A DNA stretch of 34,601 bases from Thermoplasmata archaeon (GTDB taxonomy: Archaea > Thermoplasmatota > E2 > DHVEG-1): NCBI GenBank assembly GCA_014894395.1, contig JADBLO010000066.1, positions 1-34,601 on the forward strand. The letters run 5' to 3'. The notes beneath the pieces were generated by a model, which saw nothing but the letters and a program-made list of their open reading frames with translations, searched no databases and was not told where the DNA came from. Made by a program: the position numbers and the translations under genes. Positions 13,578 to 19,545 of the stretch are shown piece after piece (position 1 is the stretch's first letter; the number at the start of each line of letters is the position of its first letter).

Positions 13578-15560
13578 TTATATGTCGATACGCACAGGTA
13601 GAATAACCACAGGCAGACCTTTCCATTGCAATCGACGCTGGACTGAAAACGCGGTTTCGTTGTGAAGCAATTTATGAAAGAGAGTCTCATGTCGGAAAAC
13701 GAGTTTTGCAGTGAAAAACATGACTTTTGGGAACTCTTCTGCGATGGATTCACAGAGATGGCTCGCGGTCTCTACCACATCAGTACCAATATCCATTCGA
13801 TAGTCAGCGGAGAATCCGAGTCTCTGCGCAAGAATGACGTACTTGAGTAACGAACTTTGTACTGATGTTTTCAATGCTTCTACTTCCTCAGCGCCTTTGA
13901 AGGAGCCTGAGTCGATCTCCGCAATTGAAACAAAAATAATATTCTTATACAACCCGGGAAAGCTTCTGATCAATGATAAAAACGTGTTCACCCCATAGCC
14001 ATTATACCCTGTCACTAGAATCACGGCGGTCATGTGTTTCGGATTCACCGGTTTTGTATTTGGATGCCCAACAAGATGGATGCTTGATAACAACAATACC
14101 TCATCGAATTTCCGCATCGCTTTTTTGATTTTTTTATAATGATTATGAATCAAATAGCAAATAAGAACAACAGCCAAGGTAACCACTAGAGTAAACCAGC
14201 CACCTTGCCAAAGTTTTTCATAGATGGTAACAATCAGGATGGTAAAACAGAGAATAAACCCGATAACGAAGATGAAAAGGTATCGTATCCAATGCTCTTT
14301 CTTTTTTCTGATTTTTATCGAAAATTTTGCCATACCTAATTGTGAGAGTGAGAACGTGAGGAACACATTAATCGCGTACATCACCACGAGCGCGGAGATG
14401 GAACCATTGGTACCAATCATTAAAAAAAGAGCGGCAATTCCCATGAACAAAACACCGTTTCGCATAGTGAGTCGCTCTGATAACGCGGCGAATTTCTTTG
14501 GAAACCATGAGTCGACAGCCATGTTGGCCATCACTCGCGGTCCGTCAATGAAACCGGTCTGAGCTGCAACAAAAAGGAGCAAACCCTCAGAAAAGATAAT
14601 AATTGCCGCAATCCAAATTCCTGCTGGCCACCCGCCAAAGAGTCTTGTTGCAAGGACAGCGTTTAACGTCTTACCTTGTACAGCCTGAATATCGAGAAGA
14701 AAATAGCAAATAAAAAGCACCCCTGCCACTAGAGCAAGGGAAATTGCCATATACATCATAGTTCGTTTACCGGTCTTTACTTTGGGTTCTCTCATGACCG
14801 GGAGACCATTGGAGACAGCTTCAATTCCGGTATATGTTCCACCTCCTAATGAGAAGGCGCGGAGGAAAATCGCAAGGATGCCAAAGAGCCCTATTACCTG
14901 CAAATCACCTCCCAATCCTGTTGAAAATTGATTGACGTGTGTACTAACCACAGATGCTTGACTGAAAATACCGTATCCTAGCAGGATGATATGAGTGATG
15001 ATAAATAGGAGAAAGATAGGAGCAAGGATAGTCACCGACTCCTTAATCCCTCGAAGATTTAGAATGATCAAGATGAAAATTTAAGAGACTTTGAATAGAA
15101 GACTGTACTGATGAAATTCTAAAGGTAAAAAACTAAAGATAGCGTCTCCACAGGCGGCAATGGAAACTGTGATAGTGAGCACATAGTCGATAAGTAAGGC
15201 AGACCCGGAGACAACCCCTGCACTTTTGCCGATTGTATGGGTGGCAACGATGTACCCTCCACCACCGTGAGGGAACTGCTCAATGATTTTCGAGTAGGTA
15301 TACGATATGATAAAAACTGTGAGCGCTGTGGCTATCGCTAAAAAAACCGCAAGATAGATATGTCCTGCGATTGCTTTGAATGCTTCCTCAGGACCGTAGG
15401 AGGAAGATGAAAGACCGTCTGCTCCAAGCCCTATCCATGACAGTAATGCTATTAATGATAATTTATGAAAAATTGAAGGGTCTTTGATATTGCGCGGGCG
15501 ACCAATAATCTTTGTTGAAATCCTCCGCAATATGCTTGGTTTAGGATCATTGTTTTCCAT
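13578..15560 (-). pseudogene. KimA-like APC-superfamily transporter interrupted by an in-frame TAA
   Basis: A frame of 661 codons from the ATG at 15560 to the stop at 13578-13580 is interrupted only by a TAA at 15081-15083 (codon 160). Before it the sequence reads through the first helices (WIGLGADGLSSSSYGPEEA, then HGGGGYIVATHTIG, typical of KimA/YdaO potassium carriers), and the stop falls in a membrane helix (FKVS-stop-IFILIILNLRGIKES). KimA-like proteins have a hydrophobic residue there, so TAA probably arose from TTA (Leu). The remaining helices include YTGIEAVSNGLPVM, and the last 160 residues are a soluble UspA-like domain (AVILVTGYNGYGVN to LPVVILPVRI). A functional downstream piece starting at the TTG at 15071 would lack the first helices, so the gene is most likely dead unless the stop is a sequencing error or is suppressed. 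The substrate guess is K+ or amino acids. Confidence 0.82.
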
Positions 15561-15827: not shown

Positions 15828-16151
15828 TTATTCAACCTGCTTTGACACACGTGGCATTCTTGAAGTGATTGCTACAAGGATGACCCATATAAGCACAATG
15901 GCGATTGTCATTGTTCCACCTACTGTTGCCAATTCCTGTAACATAACTGGGATATCAGCGGGGTTCTGCATTGCAGTCAGGAATGGTGGATAAAACACCA
16001 CTGCTCCATGTGCTATGTGCTCGATTGCAAGCATTGCGACTCCACCCCACAACATGATATTCAACCAGCCTATTTTAAGTGCTGCTGGAATTTTTTTTCT
16101 AAACACAGTCGTTACTATTCCTGTCGCCATTGGTGCTAAAAAACACGCCAT
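15828..16151 (-). CDS. Small three-helix membrane protein B, NikR-linked pair
   Basis: A 107-residue protein of no family I can name. Hydrophobic segments lie at about residues 1-18, 29-48 and 73-95, with a short basic C-terminus. The second helix reads MLWGGVAMLAIEHIAHG, and the same pattern W-G-x4-M-x4-[ED]-H-I occurs in its upstream neighbour (MFWGASFMILVDHILG), so the two are paralogues from a tandem duplication. Histidines and an acidic residue inside or beside a membrane helix would suit metal binding or transport. Its ribosome-binding site AGGAGGTAA contains the stop codon of the neighbour, which shows tight translational coupling. The operon diverges from nikR. A nickel transport or homeostasis role is an inference from that position. 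Confidence 0.75.
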   Translation of the reverse strand: MACFLAPMATGIVTTVFRKKIPAALKIGWLNIMLWGGVAMLAIEHIAHGAVVFYPPFLTAMQNPADIPVMLQELATVGGTMTIAIVLIWVILVAITSRMPRVSKQVE

Positions 16152-16155
16152 TTTT

Positions 16156-16446
16156 TTACCTCCTTTCTACATTTTGTTTTGGTTTTTTTATGATAAGAAC
16201 GGTTATCCAAATAATGAACACAGGTATTAACATAACGATTCCAAGTACGATGCCATTAGTGATGAGGCCACCTGTTTCCATTTCAACGAATGATCCACCT
16301 TTATAGCCTAAAATGTGATCAACCAGTATCATGAATGATGCGCCCCAGAACATCAAACTGAGCAAATCAAGCTTATATATTCTAGGTACTACATACCAGA
16401 GAATTGTTGCGCCAATTGCTGCAATGAGTGTAGTAATAAGCCACAT
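16156..16446 (-). CDS. Small three-helix membrane protein A, NikR-linked pair
   Basis: A 96-residue membrane protein, first gene of the pair. Hydrophobic segments lie at about 2-20, 30-48 and 60-86, ending with a lysine-rich cytoplasmic tail. The second helix carries W-G-x4-M-x4-D-H (MFWGASFMILVDHILG), matching its partner, followed by GYKGG. No signal peptide, ATPase motif or known transporter signature (such as NikM/CbiM or NiCoT HX4DH) is present. The TATA box lies 25 bases upstream of the ATG, so the mRNA is probably leaderless, and a GTTGCTACC half-site sits between the two. This placement would let a repressor such as NikR block transcription. Confidence 0.75.
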   Translation of the reverse strand: MWLITTLIAAIGATILWYVVPRIYKLDLLSLMFWGASFMILVDHILGYKGGSFVEMETGGLITNGIVLGIVMLIPVFIIWITVLIIKKPKQNVERR

Positions 16447-16466
16447 GTTTTATTTCTCGGTAGCAA

Positions 16467-16475
16467 CTTATATTT
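16467..16475 (-). promoter_or_regulatory. TATA box of the NikR-linked membrane-protein operon
   Basis: The minus strand reads AAATATAAG, centred 25 bases before the ATG at 16446. This is the spacing expected for a leaderless transcript. The GTTGCTACC motif begins directly downstream of it. Confidence 0.55.
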
Positions 16476-16500
16476 TTTCGTGCCCTTAATACAATCAAGG

Positions 16501-16509
16501 GTATAAAAG
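16501..16509 (+). promoter_or_regulatory. nikR: Possible TATA box of nikR
   Basis: GTATAAAAG on the plus strand is a good TATA match, preceded by the inverted repeat CCCTT (16484-16488) / AAGGG (16498-16502). Initiation near 16530 would give a leader of about 145 bases that contains several of the half-sites. Confidence 0.4.
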
Positions 16510-16674
16510 AATTATGGTAACAAAAATTAATAATTCGTGCTACGCTCCTCAGGCAAACGTGTTACCATAGATGCAATAAAAAATTTGGAATCTCTATCAA
16601 ACATAAACGTTAAAATAATTATTCGTAGCAGCTTTCTTATAATAGTTCCACGATTTTCCTATGGACGTGCTACC

Positions 16675-17082
16675 ATGCCTGTAGAAAGAGTAGGAGTATC
16701 TTTTGAACCTGAGTTGCTAAACAAATTTGATATATTAATAAAAAAAAAGGGCTATACAAATCGTTCTGAAGCTATTAGAGATCTGGTAAGAAAAGAGATT
16801 ATCGAATCAGGGATTAAGGAGGAGGAAAGTGAGGTCATCGGGACTCTGACTATCATCTACGATCATGATATTGGAAACGTCACAGACAAATTGCTTCACC
16901 TCCAACACCATCATCACGAGGAAATCATCTTCACGACCCACATTCATGTAGACGATCGTACATGCCTTGAAATAGTTGTGATACGTGGTCGATCGAGCCG
17001 TGTGAAAAAATTTTCAGAAAACGTCAAAGCTCTCAAAGGTGTAAAACACGGGCAGCTGGTCGTAACAAAAACATCATTCTAA
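16675..17082 (+). CDS. nikR: Nickel-responsive regulator NikR
   Basis: A 135-residue ribbon-helix-helix plus ACT-domain regulator. The DNA-binding part is RVGVSFEPELLNKFDILIKKKGYTNRSEAIRDLVR in outline (residues 5-39). The high-affinity nickel ligands of the family are all present with a shift of two from the E. coli numbering: H78 in QHHHH, H89 and H91 in THIHVDD, and C97 in TCLEI. The C-terminus KGVKHGQLVVTK is also typical. The frame is open back to 16537, but the ATG at 16675 matches the standard N-terminus of the family; the extra 46 codons are unlike NikR and overlap candidate operators. Nickel-loaded NikR usually represses uptake genes, and here the divergent membrane pair is the obvious target, while hypF on the other side links it to [NiFe]-hydrogenase maturation. 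Confidence 0.93.
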   Translation: MPVERVGVSFEPELLNKFDILIKKKGYTNRSEAIRDLVRKEIIESGIKEEESEVIGTLTIIYDHDIGNVTDKLLHLQHHHHEEIIFTTHIHVDDRTCLEIVVIRGRSSRVKKFSENVKALKGVKHGQLVVTKTSF

Positions 17083-17142: not shown

Positions 17143-19323
17143 TTACATATTTTTCTTCATATTAGCTAAATATGCTTGACCATAGCAGATACCACCATCT
17201 CCCGCGGGTAGCTCTCTATTAACAAGAACACCATGTTGAAGCATAAATCCGGAAATCATTCTGTTATATGCAACGCCCCCTGAAAAAACGATAGGCATAT
17301 CTTTCTTTTTTAATGCTGTTTTTGCTATCTCAAAAAGCCCTTTGGCGATATACATCTGAGCAGTTGCTGCGAGTTTTCCTTTATCTTCTTTATTACCAAG
17401 AAGATAATCAAATAACGGGGTTGTCATCAGAATTGTTTTACCCTGTTGATGAGAAAAAACTGGTTCAAATTCTAAAGGTGTTGTCGCCATGCTTTCCAGA
17501 ATCATCGCTGGTCGTCCATCATAAGTTCTCTTATCACAGAGACCTAACAACGCAGAAACCGCATCAAGGATCCTCCCGGTACTTGTGGTGTGTTGTACGT
17601 TGAAATTATTATGTAAAATTTGGAGATATAATCTGCTCTCTTTTTCATCAAATAATCTAATTTTTAGAAGTTCTTTTTCAGTCAATATCTTGGAAAGAAT
17701 CCCAAAGAGCATTTTCTTTGGATATATCGTTGCAGAATCCCCACCCAACTGAAGTTGTTCTTCAAGATGTCCTATTCGTGTAAATGTATTTCCTTTTCGT
17801 ACGGAGAATATTTCTCCACCCCACAACTCCCCATCATCACCATACCCTAATCCATCCATCGCAATTCCTACATAATCTGTCATATTATGCTCAGCTGCGA
17901 CGCTAGCCACATGCGCTTTATGATGTTGTATTTGAATTAATTTTGCGTTATACATTGTAGCTAATTCCTTTGCAAACATTGTTGAATTATAGCTAGGATG
18001 AAGATCACATGCAATAATCTGTGGTTTTAAACGGGTGAGATGGATAAACTTCATAACAGTATCTTTTAAAAAATTGTATGTTTCATATTTTGATGTATCA
18101 CCAATGTACTGAGAAAGATAACATTTATTTTTCTTTGTCGTACAGATGGCGTTATTTAACTCAGCACCCACCGCAACTGTATCTTGACACTCTACCGGTA
18201 ACATGATGGAAATAGGTGTATATCCCCGTGAACGTCTGAGAAAAAACGTTGTGTCATGAATAACCTTTAAAACAGAGTCGTCACATCTATGGACAATTCT
18301 TCGTTCATGGGTCAAGAAATATTTACCTATTTTTTCTATGATTGATACAGGTTCTCCTGGAATATTGCACGATGTCATTAAGAGCGGCTCATTACTATAA
18401 TCAAATAGGAGGTAATGCAACGCTGTATAGGGTAACATCACTCCAATGGTATCTAACTCCGAGGTGGTTTTGAAGGCATCCTTTTTTTTCTTTTTTAGAA
18501 CAACAATTGGTCGTTGTGGACTTTGCAATAATTCTTTTTCTTTTTCAGATACGTAGGCAATCTTTTCAACCATCTCTACATCTTTGACCATGATCGCATA
18601 TGGTTTGTGGGGGCGGTGAAACATCTCTCTTACTTTTCCCACATTCTCGTCATCACATAATGAACAGGTGTGAAACCCTCCGACTCCTTTGATTGATAGT
18701 ACCTCCCCAGATTTGATGAGATCGATTGCTTTCCCAATCGTTTCCATATCCGATTTACCGCTAATTTCTTTTTCATCACTAAGGAGACGTAATTTTGGAC
18801 CGCACTTTTTACAAGCGATTGTTTGTGCATGATATCTCCTATTAAGGGGATCGGTGTATTCTCTTTTGCATTGGGGACACATCTTGAATTGATGCATCGA
18901 TGTAAACGGTCGATCATAGGGATAATCTTCTATCATCGTAAATCGTGGTCCACAATTTGTACAGGTGATGAAATAATAGTCATGTCGTCTATTTTTTCCA
19001 TCTCTGAGTTCTCTGAGGCAATCATGACACATGAAAATATCTGCGGGAAGCTCTGTTTCTCCTTCAGATACTGAGCTTTTAAGAATTGAAAAATCAGAAA
19101 AATGTTTCTTTGATTTGATTTTCTTAACCGTGTAATTCGAGATTTTTGCAAGCGGTGGAAGATCAGTGAGTTTTTGAATGAATTCTCTGTCATTAATGAT
19201 GATTTCAACACCATTACCTATGTTTTTTACCGAGCCGACGAGTGTATGTTCTTTTGCTTTTCTGTAGATATATGGTCGAAACCCAACACCTTGAACAATG
19301 CCTTGAACGAATATTTTATACAT
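17143..19323 (-). CDS. hypF: Carbamoyltransferase HypF, [NiFe]-hydrogenase maturation
   Basis: A 726-residue HypF with all domains: acylphosphatase (about 1-90, with QGIVQGVGFRPYIYRKA), two Cys4 zinc fingers (CHDCLRELRD with CTNCGPRF; CPQCKREYTD with CKKCGPKL), a YrdC-like carbamoyl-adenylation domain (about 190-380, SIKGVGGFH), and a Kae1-like domain with HHKAHVASVAAEH and FSGGVAYN. It makes the carbamoyl group that becomes the cyanide ligands of the Ni-Fe centre, working with HypE. The frame reaches back to 19443, but the ATG at 19323 starts MYKIFVQGIVQGVG, the normal N-terminus, and has a TATA box 31 bases upstream. No other hyp or hydrogenase gene is in the window. Its neighbour, nikR, converges on it and suggests hydrogenase-linked nickel demand. 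Confidence 0.93.
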   Translation of the reverse strand: MYKIFVQGIVQGVGFRPYIYRKAKEHTLVGSVKNIGNGVEIIINDREFIQKLTDLPPLAKISNYTVKKIKSKKHFSDFSILKSSVSEGETELPADIFMCHDCLRELRDGKNRRHDYYFITCTNCGPRFTMIEDYPYDRPFTSMHQFKMCPQCKREYTDPLNRRYHAQTIACKKCGPKLRLLSDEKEISGKSDMETIGKAIDLIKSGEVLSIKGVGGFHTCSLCDDENVGKVREMFHRPHKPYAIMVKDVEMVEKIAYVSEKEKELLQSPQRPIVVLKKKKKDAFKTTSELDTIGVMLPYTALHYLLFDYSNEPLLMTSCNIPGEPVSIIEKIGKYFLTHERRIVHRCDDSVLKVIHDTTFFLRRSRGYTPISIMLPVECQDTVAVGAELNNAICTTKKNKCYLSQYIGDTSKYETYNFLKDTVMKFIHLTRLKPQIIACDLHPSYNSTMFAKELATMYNAKLIQIQHHKAHVASVAAEHNMTDYVGIAMDGLGYGDDGELWGGEIFSVRKGNTFTRIGHLEEQLQLGGDSATIYPKKMLFGILSKILTEKELLKIRLFDEKESRLYLQILHNNFNVQHTTSTGRILDAVSALLGLCDKRTYDGRPAMILESMATTPLEFEPVFSHQQGKTILMTTPLFDYLLGNKEDKGKLAATAQMYIAKGLFEIAKTALKKKDMPIVFSGGVAYNRMISGFMLQHGVLVNRELPAGDGGICYGQAYLANMKKNM

Positions 19324-19349
19324 CTTCTGCTCACTGCATAAACATGCAT

Positions 19350-19358
19350 CTATAAATT
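19350..19358 (-). promoter_or_regulatory. hypF: TATA box of hypF
   Basis: The minus strand reads AATTTATAG, centred about 31 bases before the ATG at 19323, predicting a leader of only a few bases. It supports the ATG at 19323 over the upstream in-frame start. Confidence 0.45.
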
Positions 19359-19545
19359 TATTTTCGAGGGAAGTGAACCTTGCATAAATTTTGTGTCTTT
19401 TTCCGAAATTACCTTCTGTTGGTATATAAAATAGTTGATTCAATATACTTACAAGACAAATGATCTGATTAATTGAAAAGTTATCTAGAAAATCTAAAAA
19501 AAAAGTAATCGATAATAGAATCGTAGATATGCAAGAATATACCCT

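Follow-up and report, generated by a model that had tools for sequence, protein, structure and literature searches.

Paired small membrane proteins beside nikR, a candidate nickel-uptake family of archaea and bacteria

Results

A coupled gene pair diverges from nikR

The window (the whole stretch of 34,601 nucleotides that was analysed) belongs to an archaeal genome of 2.73 Mb, 93% complete, whose named close relatives are MAGs of the Thermoplasmatota/Euryarchaeota. It carries two adjacent genes for small membrane proteins, which we term P1 and P2. The features of the locus are as follows.

15828-16151, minus strand: P2, encoded second in the pair, a membrane protein of 107 residues and three helices (ORF list)
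16156-16446, minus strand: P1, encoded first in the pair, a membrane protein of 96 residues and three helices (ORF list)
16158-16164, minus strand: AGGAGGT, the P2 ribosome-binding site, which shares bases with the final codons and the stop of P1 (read from the sequence)
16460-16486, no strand: second, imperfect operator-like site GTAGCA-N15-TGCCCT adjoining the P1 start (read from the sequence; equal position in the sister genome G050, locus L048)
16517-16543, no strand: NikR-type operator, GTAACA-N15-TGCTAC, located between P1 and nikR (agrees with the reversed consensus GTAACAC-N13-GTGTTAC of PMC545781)
16675-17082, plus strand, from the likely ATG: nikR, nickel-responsive repressor, divergent from P1/P2 (NikR_C, E=4e-27; NF003381 above cut-off)
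17143-19443, minus strand: hypF, [NiFe]-hydrogenase maturation carbamoyltransferase, a context gene beyond nikR (TIGR00143, E=2e-232)

The P1 gene ends in GAA AGG AGG TAA and the P2 ATG follows AGGAGGT by 7 nt; as read from this overlap, the two genes are translationally coupled. The initial annotation had described two proteins of these lengths, coupled through a ribosome-binding site lying over a stop codon, and the reading frames and sequence confirm it. Matches to NikR_C and TIGR00143 likewise bear out its placement of the pair, divergent from a NikR retaining all its nickel ligands (the H...HxH...C pattern is intact) and with hypF on the other side. The nikR frame as listed begins at GTG 16537, ATG 16675 being the likely start, and the TIGR00143 match begins at residue 44 of HypF, whose listed TTG start is probably too early.

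Two further observations were made in the vicinity. Between the operator and nikR (16559-16674) lies an apparent decayed second nikR start, found also at L048 and L051 and genus-wide; in L048 it reads M-V-A-I-R-R-F-G-I-S-I-E-S-E-R-stop, and a CGTGYTACCAT element is duplicated ahead of the intact nikR in the window's genus. On the other side of the pair (13578-15560, minus strand), a gene for an APC-type amino-acid permease is split into two ORFs by an in-frame TAA, which is either a nonsense codon or an assembly error; the frame is open in relatives (660 residues in G050 and G045).

P1 and P2 are members of a widespread paired family

Sequence searches with P1 and P2 of the window found no match in Pfam, NCBIfam or PDB, eight divergent relatives gave no Pfam match above cut-off, and Foldseek against PDB returned no E below 1 for either model. 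A confident match to a family of unrelated function, which the initial annotation had set beforehand as a ground for abandoning its proposal, was thus absent from these three databases. A literature search for the family found no description of it.

The GTDB collection has at least 540 loci that encode relatives of P2, in both prokaryotic domains. Among the matches listed, the archaeal ones lie in Thermoplasmatota, Archaeoglobaceae, Altiarchaeales, Bathyarchaeota, Methanomethylicota, Terraquivivens, Desulfurococcaceae and Diapherotrites, and the bacterial ones in Patescibacteria groups, Omnitrophota, Elusimicrobia, Chloroflexi, Clostridia, Bacteroidetes and Gordonibacter. The named loci analysed here are the best 80 of the 540 or more, nearest to the window's P2, a choice that may favour NikR contexts. 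P1 adjoins P2 in nearly all of these 80 fetched loci that have enough contig, in three gene orders (P1-P2, P2-P1 and divergent), and the recurrence of the two side by side across hundreds of genomes is far beyond chance. One genome (G018) has two copies of the pair (L056 being G018:C140). Copies of the L056-L058 type cluster near those of Methanomassiliicoccus on the tree, a position that suggests lateral transfer inside the family.

The two proteins resemble each other. Profile-profile comparison (hhalign) aligned them with a probability of 96.7% (E=4.6e-10, 91 columns), by which measure they are paralogous, as the initial annotation had supposed. Its shared motif in the second helix also stood, with a correction: the spacing it gave, W-G-x4-M-x4, is one residue too long at each interval, and the motif common to P1 and P2 of the window is W-G-x3-M-x3-[DE]-H, of which relatives keep parts only. 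An alignment of 42 relatives of P1 has M39, D43, L68 and W80 invariant, H44 being substituted in Lachnospiraceae, Gordonibacter and Elusimicrobia. The 40 relatives of P2 in its alignment all have M1-A-C-F4, G37, L41, H45, P56, E73, M81 and W89, and each of E44, H48 and E50 is kept in at least 90%. The AlphaFold2 model of P2 (pLDDT 84.5) comprises three helices, at residues 5-16, 27-47 and 64-98.

The pair recurs beside nikR behind a NikR-type operator

Within the taxonomic order of the window, nikR directly adjoins the pair in 16 of the 20 pair loci examined. Counting the window together with the 80 named loci, we found nikR no more than 2.5 kb from the pair 25 times, and once in the equally long DNA at 2.5-6 kb. 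A chance association with nikR was rejected on this count and on the recurrence of the adjacency across genomes.

Sequences upstream of the pair have in common an inverted repeat, GTARCAC-N13-GTGYTAC, which corresponds in reversed form to the published delta-proteobacterial NikR signal, GTGTTAC-N13/14-GTAACAC; in Desulfotalea that signal reads GTAACAC-N13/14-GTGTTAC (PMC545781). Accepting either orientation of that consensus with at most 3 mismatches in 14, we found it ahead of 49 of 86 loci, where about one would be expected (with the window's close set removed, 36 of 73); no recognisable NikR site precedes the other 37, many bacterial copies among them. Outside the close set, the reversed form occurs in 34 of 84 upstream regions; dinucleotide-shuffled sequences give 0.8 and wrong spacer lengths 7-8. 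The operator persists where nikR has left the locus (L050/G044, L065, L078 and L080), and in Bathyarchaeota and Terraquivivens it sits between divergent P1 and P2. Across the whole of G000 the degenerate pattern showed no enrichment (18 sites, with 31 for the control), so the weight of the operator lies in its position and conservation, since the pattern alone is not rare; other matches in the window's genome, inside or near unrelated genes, were discarded. By sequence, then, the pair has the published consensus upstream that marks the NikR regulon, and NikR carrying nickel may well repress it through 16517-16543.

Adjacency to nikR, and that only, would also accord with a membrane sensor or signalling pair working with NikR, and the initial annotation had offered sensing as an alternative. 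This went unsupported: P1 and P2 have neither a signalling domain nor a cytoplasmic domain, and the pair also occurs without a local nikR, with Fur, or with no regulator at all. We regard a sensor as the least credible reading, with a very slim chance of being right.

Nickel genes prevail among the other neighbours

The pair is also accompanied by hypF (9), larC (6), larB (6) and larE (3), as well as hypA/B/D/E, and at least one nickel gene lies within 2.5 kb at 32 of 81 loci (genes in these bulk counts were assigned by seed similarity, with representatives checked with Pfam). In Ruminococcus albus 7, whose pair has the accessions WP_013483715/WP_013483714, cooS, which encodes the nickel carbon-monoxide dehydrogenase CooS, is followed after 13 bp by P2 and then P1; the arrangement cooS-P2-P1 recurs in a second Ruminococcus. 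Operon-like links are seen with larBC (L133, L129), hypF/D/E (L126, L113) and cooS (L210, L139). The initial annotation would have given way had homologues mostly been found away from nickel genes; in fact they do not lie mostly apart from such genes or from nickel control.

Genes for other metals (zinc, iron, manganese or cobalt) accompany some copies too. ZnuABC (L123), FeoAB (L096, L145) or Nramp (L085) neighbours the pair in some genomes, Fur in others (L134, L135, L146) and CbiQ with corrin genes at L082 and L132, while in Methanomassiliicoccus CbiQ/CbiO and corrin genes flank it. From the Methanomassiliicoccus flanks and the Fur, Znu, Feo and Nramp neighbours one might conclude that the pair imports cobalt or divalent ions in general, under NikR control in some lineages and Fur-type control elsewhere. 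However, NikR sites and nickel enzymes predominate, and the Fur-linked L146 also adjoins a nickel gene, hypA. An importer of such broader or other specificity seems to us decidedly unlikely.

Two neighbouring arrangements are recorded in their own right. Most genomes of the family have, convergent with nikR, a gene for a 68-residue protein that bears a GCIGC motif and resembles the DUF1858 type (L053, L054, L059, L064, L169, L175 and others). In Elusimicrobia (L103, L136), two radical-SAM genes resembling HydG/HydE come after nikR-P2-P1, and one of them carries a HypC domain at its N terminus; this is possibly a nickel-starvation switch to [FeFe] hydrogenase.

Transport systems take the place of the pair in relatives

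In 20 pair-less nikR loci of the window's order, the slot divergent from nikR is occupied 13 times by a ZnuA-type ABC operon, twice by NikM/CbiM with a CbiQ-type operon, three times by a lone P2 relative, and once each by hypA and larC. By the strict pattern, the same operator as that of the pair precedes most of the ABC operons in the slot and one of the lone-relative genes. Replacement is visible inside one genus, g18, with the pair in G034 and NikM in G033. Among the 44 genomes of the window's family, f1, 17 have the pair, 14 the slot-type ABC system and none both (p=1.7e-4 by genome and 0.017 by genus, the latter respecting kinship better). Exceptions in the order are G003, with the pair and a slot-type ABC system, and G014 and G027, with the pair and a lone relative. 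An importer survey of the order, confined to NicO and CbiM, found NicO in 0 of 52 genomes and CbiM in only two, G033 and G035, both pair-less. Proteins of the NiFe-hydrogenase family are present in 50 of the 52.

The 13 ZnuA-type operons, which encode a ZnuA-type binding protein, an FmdE-domain protein and an ABC ATPase, are found in Thermoplasmatota genomes (L171-L173, L176-L179, L182, L184-L188) and are candidates for an ABC importer of nickel akin to ZnuABC, one that also appears to be undescribed. The lone P2 relative, a 97-residue protein (MVCY...VDHLWNGE) occurring in 7 of the 52 genomes, is divergent from nikR and followed by larC-larB at L170:6536-6826, L180:6511-6804 and L183:6088-6384.

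These occupants bear on two further readings. P1 and P2 might form a membrane accessory or chaperone complex, delivering or storing nickel for the maturation of hydrogenase, Lar or CODH enzymes or aiding another importer, without being the path themselves. Such a role would suit the operon-like links to larBC, hypF/D/E and cooS, the very small size of the proteins, and the presence of hypA and larC in the slot in two pair-less genomes. Yet transport systems occupy it in 15 of the 20 pair-less loci, NicO and CbiM were not found in pair-bearing genomes of the order, and the partner enzyme changes while the link to NikR is constant; we judge an accessory role unlikely. The second reading draws on the SMR family, small paired membrane proteins that act as exporters, and would make the pair a nickel exporter or detoxification unit. 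NikR, however, generally shuts off uptake genes at high nickel, and importers use the equivalent slot and operator, which makes export very improbable. The earlier proposal that the pair handles nickel is thus supported by proximity to nikR, the operator and the importers in the same slot, and transport is what we would infer from them.

The P2 motif changes where P1 has been lost

Where P1 adjoins P2 and the motif can be read, all 78 distinct P2 copies have E-H-x2-H. The motif is D-H-x2-A, N or S in four P2 copies that stand alone on contigs of sufficient length for the call, and the tree requires that P1 was lost three times independently: in Thermoplasmatota (G049), in Patescibacteria and in Dehalococcoidales. 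A P1 profile search of G049 matched the P2 gene only; for the other three copies absence was judged at the locus rather than genome-wide. The lone 97-residue protein, homologous to P2 (E=1.8e-12), has D-H-x2-N. The P2 motif therefore moves to the P1-like D-H in just those copies that have no P1. This would be expected of two helices with one site in common, and it suggests such a site for P1 and P2. The initial annotation had ventured that the two might form a heterodimer, and the idea gains from the almost invariable pairing, found in each of three gene orders, and from this switch of motif. A pseudo-fusion of P1 and P2 made by reading through the stop, modelled from paired rows plus P1 rows, reached pLDDT 79.6 and pTM 0.62, which is weak evidence: the predicted topology suggests that both proteins are N-out/C-in, so the short read-through linker strains the fused model.

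Comparison with known transporters

NiCoT permeases are single chains of about eight helices with an H-x4-D-H motif. P1/P2 resemble them as a proposed single-step nickel permease without an ATPase and in the acidic-His pair of the second transmembrane helix, but are two chains of three helices, with M-x3-D-H in P1 and E-H-x2-H in P2 in place of H-x4-D-H. Neither the window proteins nor the eight relatives matched the NiCoT family (NicO, PF03824). With NikMNQO/CbiMNQO the pair has in common the slot beside nikR and a related operator in close relatives, whereas genes for the ATPase and CbiQ (T component) are absent beside it in the window; identity with CbiM or CbiN/NikN was rejected, there being no Pfam match and an hhalign probability of 0.1 against CbiM and a CbiN-like protein. 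That P1 and P2 lack a known nickel transporter motif, as had been stated initially, holds for PF03824, CbiM and H-x4-D-H alike.

Like CbtAB, the pair consists of two neighbouring membrane proteins with predicted metal transport; it matched neither CbtA/CbtB nor HupE/UreJ in Pfam, and most Cbt candidates come from Proteobacteria and Actinobacteria (PMC2667541). SMR and Fluc/CrcB proteins also have two homologous short subunits encoded side by side, but differ in that P1 and P2 are predicted to have three helices per subunit. No Pfam match to SMR or Fluc was obtained, and the top Foldseek match of P2 was a Fluc channel (E=3.6, TM 0.28). On these comparisons the family is unrelated to the known nickel importers tested; its proposed role is already known elsewhere.

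The nearest possible earlier sign of the family is cluster 422176-177 of Desulfotalea psychrophila, a two-gene cluster marked '?', NikR-controlled and hypothetical (PMC545781). Its two genes and two reversed NikR sites recall the layout of the present locus.

Discussion

Our favoured reading, which we consider somewhat better than even, makes P1 and P2 the subunits of a heteromeric permease for nickel uptake, repressed by NikR and belonging to a new family. The pair is probably a previously undescribed route of cellular nickel uptake. P1 and P2 would assemble in the membrane as a heteromer, in the simplest form a 1:1 heterodimer of six helices, importing nickel ions when nickel is scarce; at sufficient supply, nickel-bound NikR would occupy the operator between nikR and the pair and repress it. 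The direction of transport and selectivity for nickel are part of this proposal. The putative metal site would be formed by the second helices, with D43-H44 of P1 opposite E44-H45-x2-H48 of P2, and C3 and E73 of P2 are further likely ligands. As the P1/P2 unit has no ATPase, it may be a secondary carrier or a selective channel driven by the membrane potential, comparable with NiCoT permeases.

A 2009 survey recognised Nik/CbiMNQO, NikABCDE and NiCoT as the only nickel/cobalt transporters in archaea (PMC2667541). Many anaerobes living by [NiFe]-hydrogenase, CODH or Lar enzymes are without a recognised specific importer. It is an even call whether the pair represents a new class of nickel permease, built of two homologous proteins of about 100 residues and three helices with a metal site across the subunits, present in both prokaryotic domains and serving as the specific importer of many such anaerobes. 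If so, hundreds of 'hypothetical protein' pairs could be named, including those of the cultured gut bacteria Ruminococcus albus 7 and Lachnospira eligens, and a small, portable importer would close the gap in anaerobes and offer a minimal system for studies of nickel selectivity.
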